Source of the DNA: Acidobacteria bacterium Mor1
GTDB lineage: Bacteria > Acidobacteriota > Polarisedimenticolia > Polarisedimenticolales > Polarisedimenticolaceae
Assembly (NCBI GenBank): GCA_001664505.1
Contig: CP011806.1
Span: 1,092,400 to 1,156,399 of the forward strand
DNA: 64,000 nt
Direction: 5' to 3'
Shown here in pieces: positions 2,826 through 8,920 of this stretch. Numbering within the stretch: the stretch's first letter is position 1; every line of letters starts with the position of its first letter. A program made the position numbers and the translations under genes. The notes beneath the pieces were generated by a model that was given only the letters and a program-made list of their open reading frames with translations, made no database searches and was not told where the DNA came from.

Positions 2826-2841
2826 TGGCACGGCACTTGCT
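2826..2841 (+). promoter_or_regulatory. Sigma-54 (-24/-12) promoter P1
   Basis: The sequence TGGCACG-GCAC-TTGCT matches the RpoN consensus TGGCACR-N4-TTGCW at every defined position, with GG at 2827-2828 and GC at 2839-2840 separated by exactly ten bases. The predicted start is about 2852. No ORF with a ribosome site follows before the terminator at 2901-2934. Confidence 0.85.
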
Positions 2842-2851
2842 CAATATGAGG

Positions 2852-2934
2852 GCGGAACGAAAAACCCCTGACTCCTTTTCCAGACCAGCACGATGGAAAG
2901 CCGGCGGGCCACCCCCCCGCCGGTTTTTGTTTTT
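2852..2934 (+). ncRNA. Predicted sigma-54-dependent small RNA 1 (about 83 nt)
   Basis: The 5' end is placed 12 bases after the -12 element and the 3' end at the T tract of an intrinsic terminator. The unpaired middle carries ACTCCTTTTCC, whose CTCCTTT part (2872-2878) is complementary to a strong Shine-Dalgarno AAAGGAG. TTTCC and GGAAA can form a small second hairpin before the terminator. There is no credible reading frame. Small RNAs under sigma-54 control are known (Qrr in Vibrio, GlmY/GlmZ in enterobacteria, Pxr in Myxococcus), but I see no family resemblance to those. Promoter and terminator are seen; the RNA and any target are inferred. Confidence 0.65.
2901..2934 (+). terminator. Intrinsic terminator of small RNA 1
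   Basis: CCGGCGGG (2901-2908) pairs perfectly with CCCGCCGG (2916-2923) around a C-rich 7-base loop, followed by T5-G-T5. Confidence 0.88.
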
Positions 2935-3086: not shown

Positions 3087-3101
3087 GTTGCATAGTGCAA
3101 C
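3087..3101. promoter_or_regulatory. Palindrome GTTGC-N5-GCAAC upstream of the activator gene
   Basis: GTTGCATAGTGCAAC is a perfect inverted repeat. It covers the -35 hexamer of the putative sigma-70 promoter, so binding should repress the downstream gene. It also lies about 240 bp downstream of the P1 start, close enough for enhancer action by looping. A copy with the same arms lies just after the gene at 8514-8528. Confidence 0.65.
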
Positions 3102-3116
3102 GGTTCGATCTATATC
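3088..3116 (+). promoter_or_regulatory. Putative sigma-70 promoter of the kinase/activator gene
   Basis: TTGCAT (3088-3093) and TATATC (3111-3116) are separated by 17 bp. The start would be near 3123, giving a leader of about 18 bases that begins with GAGGCGG, a usable though distant ribosome site for ATG 3141. Confidence 0.55.
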
Positions 3117-3140: not shown

Positions 3141-6100
3141 ATGAGCACTGCGACACCCCCTTCGATCGGACGTTTCAAGATCCTCCGCGAGCTCGGCCGC
3201 GGCGGCATGGGTGTGGTCTACCTGGCGGAAGACCCCGGCCGGAAGGAGCCGGTGGCCCTCAAGGTGCTCACCCGGGGCTTCTCCAGCTCCGCCCTGCGCC
3301 ATTTCGAGCAGGAGTTCCACATCCTGACCGGCCTCGATCACCCCAACCTGACCGAGGTGTACGACTTCGGCCGGGTGACCGAGCAAGGGGAAGAAGCCCC
3401 CTTCTTCACCATGGAGTTCGTCGACGGCGAGACCCTGGACCACCATTTCGACACTCTGGGCCGGGAACTGGACCGGCTCCCCGGCCTGCTGGCCCAGCTC
3501 GGCCACGCGCTGGCCTACCTCCACGGCCGGGGCCTGGTCCACCAGGACGTCAAACCTTCCAACGTCCTGGTCACCTCGGCGGGCCAGGCCAAGCTGATGG
3601 ACCTTGGGCTGGCCAGCACCGGCCACGAGGGCGCCGGCGCCGGCCGGGTGCGCGGCACCGTGGCCTACCTCTCGCCGGAAGCGGCCCGGGGGGAAGGGGT
3701 CGACCCCCGCTCGGATCTCTACAGCCTCGGATGCATGGCCTATCAACTGGTTACCGGGCGGCCACCCTTCCGGGGCGACAGCGCCCTGGGGATCCTCCGC
3801 GGACACCTGGAAGAGGCTCCGCTGGCCCCCTCCACCCTGAACCCCGAGACGCCGTCTCCCCTCGAGTCCCTGATTCTGAGATTGCTGGCCAAGGAGCCGG
3901 CCGACCGGCCCCAGAGCGCCGATCGCTTCCTGCACGAGTTGAACGAGGTCGCCGGCGGGGCGCTGACCATCGAATCCGCGGACACACGCCGCACCCGGGT
4001 GCTCGGCGCTGGATTCGTCGGCCGTGCTACGGAGTTGGAACGTCTGCAGCGGCAGGTTCGGGACGCCCGGGCCGGCCGCGGCCGCATGGTCTTCCTGGTC
4101 GGCGAGGCAGGGGTCGGCAAGAGCCGCCTGATTCGCGAGCTTCAGGTCCAGAGCCAGCTCGACGGCTTCGACCTCTACATCGGGCGCCCGCGGGAATCCC
4201 AGAGCGCCCTGGCCGATGCCCTGGACAGGGCGCTGCTCGACCGCGGAGCCGACGCCTCGGTAAGGGAACGGCTGGCGCCGCTGCTCGGCGAAGAGATCGA
4301 CGGGAGCGACCGCAATGTCGCCGGCGCTCCCCAACTGGCCAGCGCCCTCAGCGAGATTCTGTCGGATCTCTCCCGGGACAAACCGATCGGCCTGGCCCTG
4401 GAAGACCTGCACCTGGCCGACGAAACCACGTGCACGTTGCTGGCATCGGTGATGGAGCGTCTGGCCGACGCGCCGGGTGACCGCCCGAGTGTCCCGCTCC
4501 TGATCGTGGCGGCCTACCGCGGGGACGAGGTCTCCCGGGCGACTCCCCTGTTCGAGCTGCTCGAAGGCGCGAGGCGGGTGGATCAGATCGTCGAGGAGCA
4601 GGTCCTCGAACCGCTCTCCGCCGACGAAACCGATCAGCTGGTGCGCTCCCAGTGCGGCGCCTCGACGGTACCGCCGGCGTTCCTCGAACGAATCCTGGAA
4701 GAGACCCGGGGCAACCCGCTGCACATCGGCGAACTGCTGGCGCTCCTGGCCGAGGAGGGGCACCTGCGTCCCGGCGCCGAGAACCCCTTCGGCTCCTCGG
4801 CGCTCCAGAACCTCGAACTGCCCCGCAGGATTCATGACCTGCTCGCCCGCCGCCTCGAACGCGCCGGAGAGGAACCGATGGCGGTCCTCCAGGCCGGGGC
4901 GATCCTCGGCGGCATGACCCTCGACCCCGAAGCCATCGCTGCGGTGACCGGCCTGCGTTGGGAGCACGTCGTCGGACGCTTCCTCGAACTGCGCGAGACC
5001 GGCTTGCTGGAGCGGGAGCAGGTCGAGGGGCGCGAACCCGAGTACCGGCTCGTGCACCCGGTGCTGGCCGGGCTCGCCCTCGAGTCGATGCCCGCCGGCG
5101 AACAGAAGGAGCTTCACGCCCGGGCGGTTTCCTATCTCGAAAGACGGCGGATCCCGCGGCGCCACGGCGCCTGGAGGTCCCTGGCGCGGCACGCCGAAGC
5201 CGCCGGACAACCGGGCCGCGCCATCGAGGCCTACCGCCGGGCGGCAGACCTGGCCTGCGACCTGGCGGCCCACCGCGAGGCCGTCGCCGACTACAGCACC
5301 GCCATCGATCTCGCGTTGCGCCAACCCGCCACGCCGGCGACGGTGCTCTGCGAGCTTTACCAGCGACGCGGCGACACCCGCGCCCTGACCGGCGACCTGC
5401 GCCGCGCCGAGGAGGACTACCGCTGGATGCTGGCGCGGGCCGAGAAGAGTGGCGAGCAACACCTCAAGGCCTGGGCGCACCTCTCCCTCGGCGATGTCCT
5501 CGCCGCCGGCGAGCGGTACTCCGAAGCTCAGGATGAACTCGAGGTCGCCCTGGACATCGCCGAGCGGGTCGAGGAACCCGCCGTGATCGCGCGTTCCCAA
5601 CTGGCGCTGGGCGAGATCCTGGCCCGGCAGGATCGGTTCGACGAGGGTATTCGTTTCCTCGATGCGGCCGCCGAGGCGGCCCGGGACGCCGAGCGCGAGG
5701 ATCTCGCGATCCAGACGCTATTGCGCAAGGGTGTGCTGCTGCGCGAACACGGAGACCTCAAGGCGGCGCTGGCCTGCTACGAGGCGGTTCGCGAACGGAT
5801 CGGCGACCGCGCCGAGCCGTCGGTCGAGGTCTCGATCGACGAGGGCACTGCGGTGGCGCTGGAGGTCCAGGGAGACCTGGGCGGCGCCCTCGAGGCCTGC
5901 CGGCGGGCGCGGAAACGGGCGCAGGAGCTGGGAGACACCCGGCGCTCGGCCTCCCTATCGATCCGGGTCGGCCGCCTGCTCTCGATGCGCGGCGACATGA
6001 ACGGCGCCGACGAGGAACTGCGCGACGCCCTGCAGCGTCATCGCGACCTCGGCCTGCGGGAAGGGCTCGCCGCGACGCTCCACGCCCTGAGCCGGCTTCA

Positions 6101-8504
6101 GTCGCGCAGAGGCCGCTTCGCCGAGGCGGCGCGCAATGCGCGAGAAGCGCTGGAGCTCTGTCGAAGACTCGACCGGCGGGACCTGACCGCGACTTCGCTG
6201 ATGTTGCTCGGCGGCGTCGATCGAGATGCCGGCGATCCGGAACGAGCCGCGTCGCGCCTCGAAGAAGCCGACCGCATGATGAGCGGCTCGCGCAACCTGC
6301 AGTGGCACCCGGGCTTCCTGCTGGAGCTGGCCACGCTGCGCCATCTGCAGCGGAACTACGACGAGGCGATGAAGCTGTTCCAGGAGTCGGCCTTCCTCTC
6401 GCGCCGTGCGGGAGATCCACGCCGGGAGGCCCGGGCCTTCTGCGGCCTCGGTGAAGCGCATCTGTCCAGCAACGACTACGACCGCGCGCGGGTGGCGGTG
6501 CGCAAGGCGCTGCGCCTGGTGGAGTCTGGAGAATTCGGCCACGAGGTCTCTCTGGCCCGTCTGCTGCGGGCCAGGATCGAACTGGCCCTTCCCGGCGGCG
6601 ATCTGGTATCCGCCGAGCTCGACGCGGGAACCGCACTCGAGACCTTCCGCGAGTTGCAGCAACCCGAATGGGTCTGGCAGGCCGAGCATCTCGTCGGCCG
6701 GGCTCAACTGCGGCTCGGCCGTCGGTCCGACGCCATCGAACGACTGCAGCGTGCCCATCGCTACGTCGACCGGGCCCACGCCCGGCTCGACGGCCGCTTC
6801 CGGCGGACCTTCCTCGAACACCCGGCTCGCCGGGAACTGATCGAGGACTGGAAGCGCCTGCGTGTCGAGGCCGCCGAGGAGATCCCCCAGGAAGAGAAGG
6901 TCGAATCCGGCGAACTTGCGCGGGCGCAGAACACCATCGAAGCGCTGGAAGGCCTGCTCGACCTCAACCGCAAGTTCCTCTCTGCCGAGAGCACCGACGC
7001 ACTGCTCGATGCGATCCTCGAATCCGCGCTGCGCCACAGCGGCGCCGAGCGTGCGCTGCTTCTGGTCCGCGACGGCGAGGGCGAAATCGAGTTACGGCGC
7101 GGCCGCTCCGGCGACGGGCAGCCCCTGGGCAAGGAGGATGAGCGCTTCTCCCGCTCGATCGTCCAGGCAACCATCTCCCGGGGTTCTGCGCTCAGCGCAG
7201 CCGATGCCGAGGCGGACTCCCGCTTCAGCGGTTTCGAGTCGGTCCATGAACTGCGCATTCGTTCGGTGCTCTCGGTACCGCTTCCCGATAGTGGAGGCAC
7301 CACCGGCGCGCTCTATCTGGACGCCCGCATGAACCGCCGCGCCTTCTCCGTCGAACAGGAGAACCTGGTCGGCCGGCTCGCGGTCCAGGCCGCTCTGGCG
7401 CTGGGCCACGCATCCCTGCTGGAGCGGCTGGCTGAACAGAAGCAGAGCGTCGACCGGCTCAACCGCGAGCTCCAGAAGACCATCGCCGCGCAACGGGACG
7501 AGCTCGCCGAGGTGCGCGAGGCGCTCTCGTTCAGCCGCACCAGCATCGAGATGCGCTACCGCTTCGAGGACATCATCGGCGGCTCGCCGGTGATGCAGCG
7601 GGTCTATCACGTGATCGAGCGGCTGGCACCCAAACGGCTGCCGGTGCTGATCATCGGCGAATCCGGCACCGGCAAGGAGTTGATCGCGCGTGCGCTCCAC
7701 ACCAAGAGCGACCGCAGCAGCGGGCCCTTCTTCACGGTCAACTGCGCCGCGGTCAGCGAGACCCTGCTGGAGAGTGAGCTGTTCGGCTACCGCAAGGGCG
7801 CGTTCACCGGCGCCGACCGGGACAAGCCCGGCTACTTCGAGCTGGCCGACGGCGGAACGCTGTTCCTCGACGAGATCGGTGAGATGGGCCAGGCCATGCA
7901 GGCCAAACTGCTGCGGGCCATCGAACGGGGCGAGGTGATGCCCGTCGGCGGCAAGACGCCGAGCAAGATCGACGTGCGCATCGTCTGTGCGACCCACCGG
8001 GACCTGCCGGCGATGATCGCCGAGGGCGCCTTCCGCGAGGACCTCTACTACCGGGTCAACGTCGGCCGGGTCGATGTGCCCCCGCTGCGCAAGCGGCTCG
8101 ACGACGTGCCGCTGCTGATCGACCACTTCCTGGCCCGCCAGGCAGAAGAAGAAGGCACCGATCCACTGGAACTCGAACCCTCGGCACTCAAGGCGCTGCG
8201 ACAGCACCAGTGGCCCGGCAACGTCCGGGAGCTGCAGCACCAGTTGATGCGGGTCGCGACCTTCGCCAAGGGCAAGGTCATCACCGTCAAGGACGTGGCC
8301 CGCTACGCCGACCTGCCCAGCTCCAGACCCGGCGACCCGGCACCGGCCCAGGACGATCGCTCGGTGGTCAGCCTCGAGGAGCTCGAGCGCCGCCAGATCC
8401 AGAAAGCGCTGGAGTCCGCCGGAGGCAACAAGACCAAGGCCGCGGAGCTCCTGGGAATCAACCGGGCCACCCTGTTCCGCAAGCTGAAACGCTACGGGAT
8501 CTGA
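3141..8504 (+). CDS. Ser/Thr kinase - AAA ATPase - TPR - GAF - sigma-54 activator fusion
   Basis: This 1787-residue cytoplasmic protein should sense a signal, phosphorylate proteins and activate sigma-54 promoters. Residues 10-270 form a PknB-like kinase: glycine loop GRGGMGVV near 19, [12 protein letters not shown] near 134 (Gln replaces the usual Arg of HRD), DLGLA, and SPEAARG. Residues about 295-560 form an AAA_16/STAND-type ATPase with GEAGVGKS. A long helical TPR-like region follows to about 1250, then a GAF domain (about 1310-1435) and a short coiled coil. The sigma-54 AAA+ domain (about 1465-1700) has Walker A GESGTGKE at 1506-1513, intact GAFTGA at 1553-1558 and Walker B LFLDEIGE near 1575. 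A Fis-type helix-turn-helix ends the protein (about 1745-1787). It therefore keeps everything needed to contact sigma-54, hydrolyse ATP and bind DNA. Small-RNA promoters and palindromes on both sides point to its targets. The domain calls are firm; the signal is unknown. Confidence 0.93.
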
Positions 8505-8513
8505 GCCGGCACC

Positions 8514-8528
8514 GTTGCAAGCTGCAAC
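8514..8528. promoter_or_regulatory. Palindrome GTTGC-N5-GCAAC, putative enhancer site 1 for P2
   Basis: GTTGC-AAGCT-GCAAC is a perfect inverted repeat with the same arms as the site at 3087-3101. Its centre is about 139 bp upstream of the GG of the sigma-54 promoter at 8659, a normal distance for an enhancer-binding activator. Confidence 0.68.
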
Positions 8529-8542
8529 AGCCGGCGTCCACC

Positions 8543-8557
8543 TGTGCAACGTGCAAC
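8543..8557. promoter_or_regulatory. Imperfect palindrome, putative enhancer site 2 for P2
   Basis: TGTGC-AACGT-GCAAC keeps one full half-site and the inner TGC of the other. It is centred 29 bp after site 1 and about 110 bp before the sigma-54 promoter. Confidence 0.55.
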
Positions 8558-8658: not shown

Positions 8659-8674
8659 TGGCACGGGGGTTGCT
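8659..8674 (+). promoter_or_regulatory. Sigma-54 (-24/-12) promoter P2
   Basis: TGGCACG-GGGG-TTGCT matches the RpoN consensus at every defined position, with GG 8660-8661 and GC 8672-8673 ten bases apart. P1 and P2 also share TTGCTC(A/T)ATA just past the -12 element. The predicted start is about 8685. Confidence 0.87.
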
Positions 8675-8684
8675 CTATAGGGGG

Positions 8685-8920
8685 GCAGGCAACGGCGAAC
8701 CCGAGAGGGGCCGTAGGAGAGAGCGGACAACGTTCTTCGTTTGCTTGAGAACGGTAGAGAACCCCCTCCTGCGATCCGATCGATCCTCGGTCTTTCGAGG
8801 GAGCGCTGGCAGCGGAGTGCCACTGGTCGCTATGAGGCTCCACCGGCCCATAGATTCTTGCACTCCCCCCCGACTCCGGCGGCCCGACGTCGCGAAAGCG
8901 ACGCCGGGCCGTTGTTTTTT
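8685..8920 (+). ncRNA. Predicted sigma-54-dependent small RNA 2 (about 236 nt)
   Basis: The RNA is bounded by P2 and the terminator at 8881-8920. Several hairpins are readable: CGTTCT/AGAACG (about 8730-8753), CCTCG/CGAGG around GTCTTT, and TGGCA/TGCCA with GCGGAG in the loop. Between them lies CCCCCTCCT (8762-8770), containing CCTCCT, the complement of a perfect Shine-Dalgarno sequence. A second C-rich run (ACTCCCCCCCGACTCC) precedes the terminator; small RNA 1 has a similar C7 run. No frame has a ribosome site and coding character; the frame that runs through it belongs to the gene at 9001. Function and targets are inferred only. Confidence 0.65.
8881..8920 (+). terminator. Intrinsic terminator of small RNA 2
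   Basis: A 13-bp stem with one mismatch (8881-8893 with 8898-8910) closes on a GAAA tetraloop and is followed by GTTGTTTTTT. Confidence 0.92.

Follow-up and report, generated by a model that had tools for sequence, protein, structure and literature searches.

The stretch of DNA analysed here (the window) comprises 64,000 nt of the genome of Acidobacteria bacterium Mor1. Near its start lies a large gene for a sigma-54 activator, flanked on each side by a sigma-54 promoter (P1 and P2) and a predicted small RNA (sRNA1 and sRNA2) and accompanied by copies of a palindrome (Table 1). Upstream of P1, two tRNA genes stand on the minus strand (2400-2472 and 2572-2643); a tRNA pair is also found upstream of the activator locus in the related genomes G018, G027, G031, and G035 and can be seen in the contigs of G039 and G025. 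At gathering score, the Rfam models matched the two tRNAs in the window and neither sRNA1 nor sRNA2.

Table 1. Features of the activator locus (window coordinates).
Feature	Position	Strand	Basis
Sigma-54 promoter P1, TGGCACGGCACTTGCT	2826..2841	+	Perfect match; orthologous loci have sigma-54 sites in the corresponding position
sRNA1, predicted, 83 nt	2852..2934	+	Start from -24/-12 spacing, end from terminator; related RNAs elsewhere
sRNA1 block A, CCCCTGACTCCTTTTCCAG, complementary to the ribosome-binding site of G000:C1:949115-949981(-), a lipoprotein gene	2865..2883	+	Open search, duplex, co-variation
sRNA1 block B, ACCAGCACGATGGAAA, complementary to a second leader element about 25-30 nt further upstream	2884..2899	+	Duplex
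sRNA1 intrinsic terminator, overlapping the last bases of block B	2896..2934	+	Terminator scan, folding
Palindrome GTTGCATAGTGCAAC, candidate activator site, overlapping the -35 of the activator promoter	3087..3101	.	Exact; kept in orthologues
Sigma-70-type promoter of the activator gene, TTGCAT-17-TATATC	3088..3116	+	17-nt spacing the same in 10/11 loci
Sigma-54 activator gene, 1787 aa: Ser/Thr kinase, AAA_16, TPR, GAF, Sigma54_activat (GAFTGA), HTH_8	3141..8504	+	Domain matches
Palindrome GTTGCAAGCTGCAAC, upstream of P2	8514..8528	.	Exact copy
Third palindrome copy, weaker, 2 mismatches	8543..8557	.	Pattern match
Sigma-54 promoter P2, TGGCACGGGGGTTGCT	8659..8674	+	Perfect match; conserved behind orthologues
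sRNA2, predicted, about 236 nt: long hairpin, linker, terminator	8685..8920	+	Folding, homologues, covariation

The consensus for sigma-54 promoters is TGGCACG-N4-TTGCW, and a pattern search of the window showed that P1 agrees with it at all defined bases, as the original prediction had stated; the site is a -24/-12 promoter with the GG and GC elements at the correct spacing. Since perfect sites number 2 in the 5.985-Mb genome, compared with 3 for a reversed control pattern, and a general terminator scan found 1 terminator where 1.2 were expected, the P1 site alone is not beyond chance. It is the context that exceeds chance. The genome's only two perfect sites (2826 and 8659) are 5.8 kb apart, flank one activator gene, and lie on that gene's strand, and a scan with a position weight matrix at a cut-off of 15.5 bits gave 0 sites in 257,072 strand-bases of other loci. 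The P1 site, the terminator, and the RNA sequence recur upstream of activator orthologues in other genomes. Indeed, sigma-54 sites occur on both sides of the activator gene in Mor1, G001, G009, G018, G027, G031, G035, and G011, with additional single sites at loci where contigs end. G013 carries the activator, shows no P1 site of at least 12 bits in the 2.1 kb upstream, and has sigma-54 sites downstream only. A chance promoter followed by a chance hairpin, with no RNA made, would be in keeping with pattern counts that by themselves are at chance level, but conservation of the unit in 11 genomes and its links to the activator, the palindrome, and a target make this reading extremely unlikely.

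RpoN and enhancer-binding proteins are both encoded in the Mor1 genome, which has one rpoN match and 35 Sigma54_activat matches, about 25 of them full-length. Several further sigma-54-like sites lie near genes with a Sigma54_activat match (for example in G000:C1, the Mor1 contig, at 344193, 463065, 1232034, 3571346, and 3763948), so that local activator-promoter pairs may be common in this genome. Within ~100 kb at G000:C1:3506761-3605115, eleven of the listed sigma-54-like sites, each with no more than 1 mismatch, form a cluster.

Counting 26 bases from the sigma-54 site places the +1 of sRNA1 near 2852. A hairpin at 2896-2928 is followed by a T-rich tail that ends at 2934, in agreement with the 83-nt transcript and the early terminator that had been predicted. 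Folding of the terminator stretch gave -22.5 kcal/mol (z -5.1), a value that none of 200 shuffled sequences equalled; a factor-independent terminator thus follows soon after the predicted start. Eleven genomes retain the promoter, the RNA, and a terminator-like hairpin, and G039 carries the complete promoter-RNA-terminator unit twice in tandem. The homologues share a common UGGCUCCUUUUCCUCUACCAG-like stretch, followed by the terminator. A covariance model (R2) built from six sRNA1 copies matched 9 of the 41 genomes of the class that were searched, strongly in seven of the nine (the six training genomes and G039) and more weakly in G025 (E 3e-5); two matches in G037 (E 0.03-0.04) were left out of the count. 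The total of 11 includes the copies of Mor1, G001, and G009, which the model missed and which were assigned by position, promoter, and hairpin; the G001 hairpin has no T-run and that of G009 no immediate one.

When the segment was searched as DNA against the 41 genomes, it matched itself and, besides, only a 37-nt terminator-like stretch at 2151030 of the Mor1 genome; the primary sequence of sRNA1 diverges too fast for a plain DNA search. Scanning GTDB genomes by pattern turned up 32 stretches, of which four (L073, L085, L097, and L098) are true copies in Acidobacteria records; L085 was taken to be the same contig as G029:C474 and counted once. Since the other 28 look like chance matches, sRNA1 is not widespread in that exact form. 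Among known RNA families, the GlmY/GlmZ models found no match at E up to 5 in eight loci and so do not claim sRNA1 as a member. Likeness to mmgR/suhB (RF00519) is confined to a weak match at the G035 sRNA1 locus, which at 24.1 bits falls below the gathering score of 41 and does not amount to membership; the other seven of the eight loci scanned had no match. As judged by these Rfam models, there is no sign that sRNA1 belongs to a known family.

The activator sequence had matches with E no higher than 1e-100 in 24 of the 41 genomes of the class. Sixteen of these, with a best match of at least 473 bits, were taken as orthologues, while in the remainder the similarity is mostly to the C-terminal part. 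The domain order is the same in three orthologues from other genomes, although in G027 no TPR family scored above the cut-off. At two loci, G020:C52 (L069, site 6050) and G016:C108 (L068, site 4681), a sigma-54 site stands behind another large gene that matches the activator's C-terminal part and is followed by a small secreted protein, not by an RNA; the protein at the G020 locus has repeated NIGGAGP-like motifs.

The orientation of P1 raises the question of whether its transcript could be the 5' leader of the activator mRNA, with the hairpin as an attenuator that would permit positive self-control by read-through. In loci that have both, P1 and the activator gene are indeed co-oriented and a few hundred bases apart. 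However, the activator gene has its own sigma-70-type promoter, with a 17-nt spacer in 10 of the 11 loci read (the register is shifted in G001), and because this promoter is conserved the gene needs no read-through from P1. Furthermore, the tandem units of G039 have a terminator each, and a mere leader would leave unexplained the co-varying complementarity between the RNA and a distant mRNA that is described below. We therefore consider the leader reading very unlikely, and a separate sigma-54-driven small RNA at 2826-2934 is, on the comparative evidence, the supported and best reading. The original prediction that the product is a small RNA thus holds, given the unit kept in 11 genomes, the activator gene's own promoter, and the co-varying target in trans; what it missed were the link to the activator, the palindromes, the target, and the second RNA of the locus.

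The palindrome GTTGCA-N3-TGCAAC (searched as TTGCANNNTGCAAC) has exactly two mismatch-free sites in the 6-Mb genome, at 3087-3101 and 8514-8528. Orthologous loci carry it at equivalent places, mostly with 0 or 1 mismatch and with two in the downstream copy of G001. The palindrome nearest to P1 lies downstream of it, not upstream. From the position of these sites, the activator probably represses itself and activates P1 and P2.

Since the core of sRNA1, CUCCUUUUCC, is complementary to Shine-Dalgarno sequences, we searched seven genomes for targets with the pattern GGAAAAGGAG-N(1-12)-RTG. Of the 39 places found, 2 are the antisense strand of sRNA1 itself, and 9 lie in front of genes of one lipoprotein family, with each of the 7 genomes contributing one or more (two of the nine, in G011, were taken as contig-end copies of one gene). 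In Mor1, 6 places fit the pattern; among the 5 frames inspected, only one is a true-looking gene start, that of the lipoprotein gene at G000:C1:949115-949981 on the minus strand. Members of the family have a signal peptide with a lipobox, followed by a CAITNYP-like sequence, and they gave no useful Pfam or NCBIfam match and no meaningful match among PDB sequences. Of the 41 genomes of the class, 18 have the family, frequently in tandem copies; such arrays are seen, for example, at L194 (G000:C1:5826500-5834000), L196 (G018:C10), and L197 (G029:C112). Its distribution follows that of the activator: 16 genomes have both the activator orthologue and the lipoprotein family, 0 the activator only, 2 the lipoprotein only, and 23 neither (Fisher p 1.5e-9, a value that ignores kinship). 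The two lipoprotein-only genomes are G037 and G007, in which no activator orthologue was recognised at the cut-off used. At about -110 to -90 from the start codon, target leaders (for example L196, L210, and L211) have a conserved AAAGGGGGTCGGTT-like element, and further upstream lies a promoter-like stretch, TTGAC...CGTACTTT.

Nearly all of the unpaired part of sRNA1 is complementary to two blocks of the lipoprotein leader. In Mor1, CCCCUGACUCCUUUUCCAG forms base pairs across the ribosome-binding site, and ACCAGCAC..AUGG, which adjoins it, does so with the leader element further upstream, giving a duplex of -54.6 kcal/mol. The same two-block plan can be drawn in the other genomes, most weakly in G001 (cognate z -2.0). 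When ten sRNA1 sequences were paired with ten targets, one chosen per genome, the cognate mean was -39.8 versus -30.7 for non-cognate pairs, the cognate target was the best of its row in 8 of 10 cases, and 0 of 20,000 permutations, which take no account of relatedness, were as good as the cognate pairing. Bases that flank the anti-Shine-Dalgarno core vary in concert with the target (permutation p 0.0004-0.0015); C-G, U-A, and A-U pairs are all represented at the fourth position, where 2 of the 10 are mismatched. The complementarity of sRNA1 to the ribosome-binding site of its target therefore co-varies, as in a trans-acting antisense RNA. When 9324 windows from 282 kb of the Mor1 genome served as background, the target ranked first outside sRNA1's own gene, but the next window, at -52.2, is so close to -54.6 that duplex energy alone would not single it out genome-wide. 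Within the nine family members of Mor1, only G000:C1:949115-949981 pairs well (z -5.3); the other eight (z -1.6 to +1.9) have different ribosome-binding sites. In G025, G027, and G031, two paralogues each pair well with sRNA1.

The core CUCCUUUUCC resembles the 3' end of 16S rRNA, and sRNA1 could on that account act against Shine-Dalgarno sequences in general, with many targets among which the lipoprotein would be merely the best match; other windows of the Mor1 genome with good energy would fit such a role. However, the pairing spans almost the whole unpaired RNA, includes the second leader block, and co-varies, and only one of the five inspected among the 6 pattern places in the genome is a true-looking gene start. 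A general function of this kind is unlikely. We favour instead, with a probability of roughly 85%, that sRNA1 is a trans-acting antisense RNA which is made from a sigma-54 promoter, is switched on by the adjoining activator, and lowers synthesis of the lipoprotein.

The second predicted RNA, behind the activator gene, ends in a terminator hairpin (8880-8911) with a T-run at 8915-8920. The RNAalifold consensus of eight homologues from family f5 has 26 pairs, 7 of which show a pair-keeping change on both sides; the long stem is where this covariation is seen. The corresponding model (R1) found sRNA2 in 11 of 396 genomes of the phylum, all of them f5; it misses the Mor1 copy, which was assigned by position, promoter, and hairpin. 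In G037, sRNA2 is present, no intact activator gene was recognised, and long open frames lie upstream of the RNA; at this locus (L128, G037:C1:720000-739000) the activator gene seems split into several frames beside an intact-looking sRNA2, and the broken frames are perhaps sequencing errors. In G025 (C57, L130), sRNA2 does not adjoin the activator gene and lies ~4.8 kb behind it. Several sRNA2 linkers have C-tracts that match the conserved G-tract of target leaders.

The twin promoters of the two RNAs would also suit an sRNA1 that acts mainly with or against sRNA2, as a decoy or sponge, comparable to GlmY for GlmZ. Several sRNA2 linkers contain a CTCCTTT-like stretch, and that of G013, a genome in which the analysis found no sRNA1, pairs with the leader of the lipoprotein (z -3.9). 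In the other genomes, Mor1 included, no convincing partner for sRNA2 was found in the lipoprotein family, and the helix test of sRNA2 and target gave no co-variation (p 0.17), both of which argue against such a main role; we regard it as improbable, about as much so as a general anti-Shine-Dalgarno function.

Returning to sRNA1 as an antisense regulator of the lipoprotein, the features of the locus can be arranged as follows. A signal would reach the Ser/Thr-kinase activator (3141-8504), which most likely binds the GTTGCA-N3-TGCAAC palindromes around its own gene; through the palindrome at its own -35, it would limit its own synthesis. Sigma-54 transcription would then yield sRNA1 from P1, with the structured sRNA2 probably co-induced from P2. 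The two adjacent blocks of sRNA1 would pair with two separated parts of the leader and cover the ribosome-binding site, possibly with the help of Hfq, which is present in the Mor1 genome, and the site covered suggests that less lipoprotein would be made. Transcription itself, activation by the 3141-8504 protein, the sign of the regulation as repression, and a role for Hfq are steps that we infer. In its full extent, the scheme would be a self-contained envelope-control circuit of one Acidobacteria class, in which a self-repressing kinase/TPR/GAF activator governs two dedicated flanking sRNAs, sRNA1 clamping the lipoprotein leader at two sites and sRNA2, a long hairpin and the older partner in lineages without sRNA1, acting on the same lipoprotein family; this wider version is tentative, and we give it slightly less than an even chance.

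In our assessment, GlmY beside qseEGF is the known system closest in logic, and MicL with Lpp the closest in outcome. In Enterobacteriaceae, the sRNA gene glmY immediately precedes the genes that encode its own sigma-54 activator system, qseEGF (PMC6075780; PMC8745638). The likeness extends to the sigma-54 promoter, the sRNA gene beside its activator, the activator sites (defined there, candidates here), and the relation to the envelope; in contrast, the enterobacterial system has a two-component pair with a histidine kinase, the upstream activating sequence TGT-N12-ACA, and an overlapping sigma-70 promoter (PMC6075780; PMC8745638), whereas the Mor1 locus has Ser/Thr kinase and activator in one protein, two flanking RNAs, another palindrome, and pairing with a lipoprotein leader. 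MicL of E. coli likewise lowers an envelope lipoprotein, Lpp, but depends on sigma-E instead of sigma-54 and is made inside another gene; we claim no sequence relation. The Qrr RNAs of Vibrio (see also PMC10162802), which differ in their quorum-sensing targets and two-component activator, resemble the present case in that several sigma-54-dependent sRNAs are under one activator, LuxO, with one of them adjoining it.

Acidobacteria are abundant, yet hardly any regulatory RNAs have been annotated in them; a table in a 2022 survey gives 4 distinct sRNAs for the phylum (PMC9029176). A partial literature search, covering titles and the beginnings of abstracts, found no such circuit from Acidobacteria. 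At the Mor1 locus, sequence alone yields a chain from activator to candidate sites, promoter, RNA, and target site, with co-variation as internal support, and the route by which the target was found is repeatable in other uncultured lineages. If the circuit is true, sRNA1 and sRNA2 would each represent a new RNA family, and the amplified surface family to which the lipoprotein belongs would be new as well. A candidate regulator is thereby proposed for this amplified and uncharacterised group of lipoproteins, and the results suggest that sigma-54-dependent sRNAs control the envelope not only in the GlmY/QseEGF system but also in a distant phylum, where the activator carries a Ser/Thr kinase.
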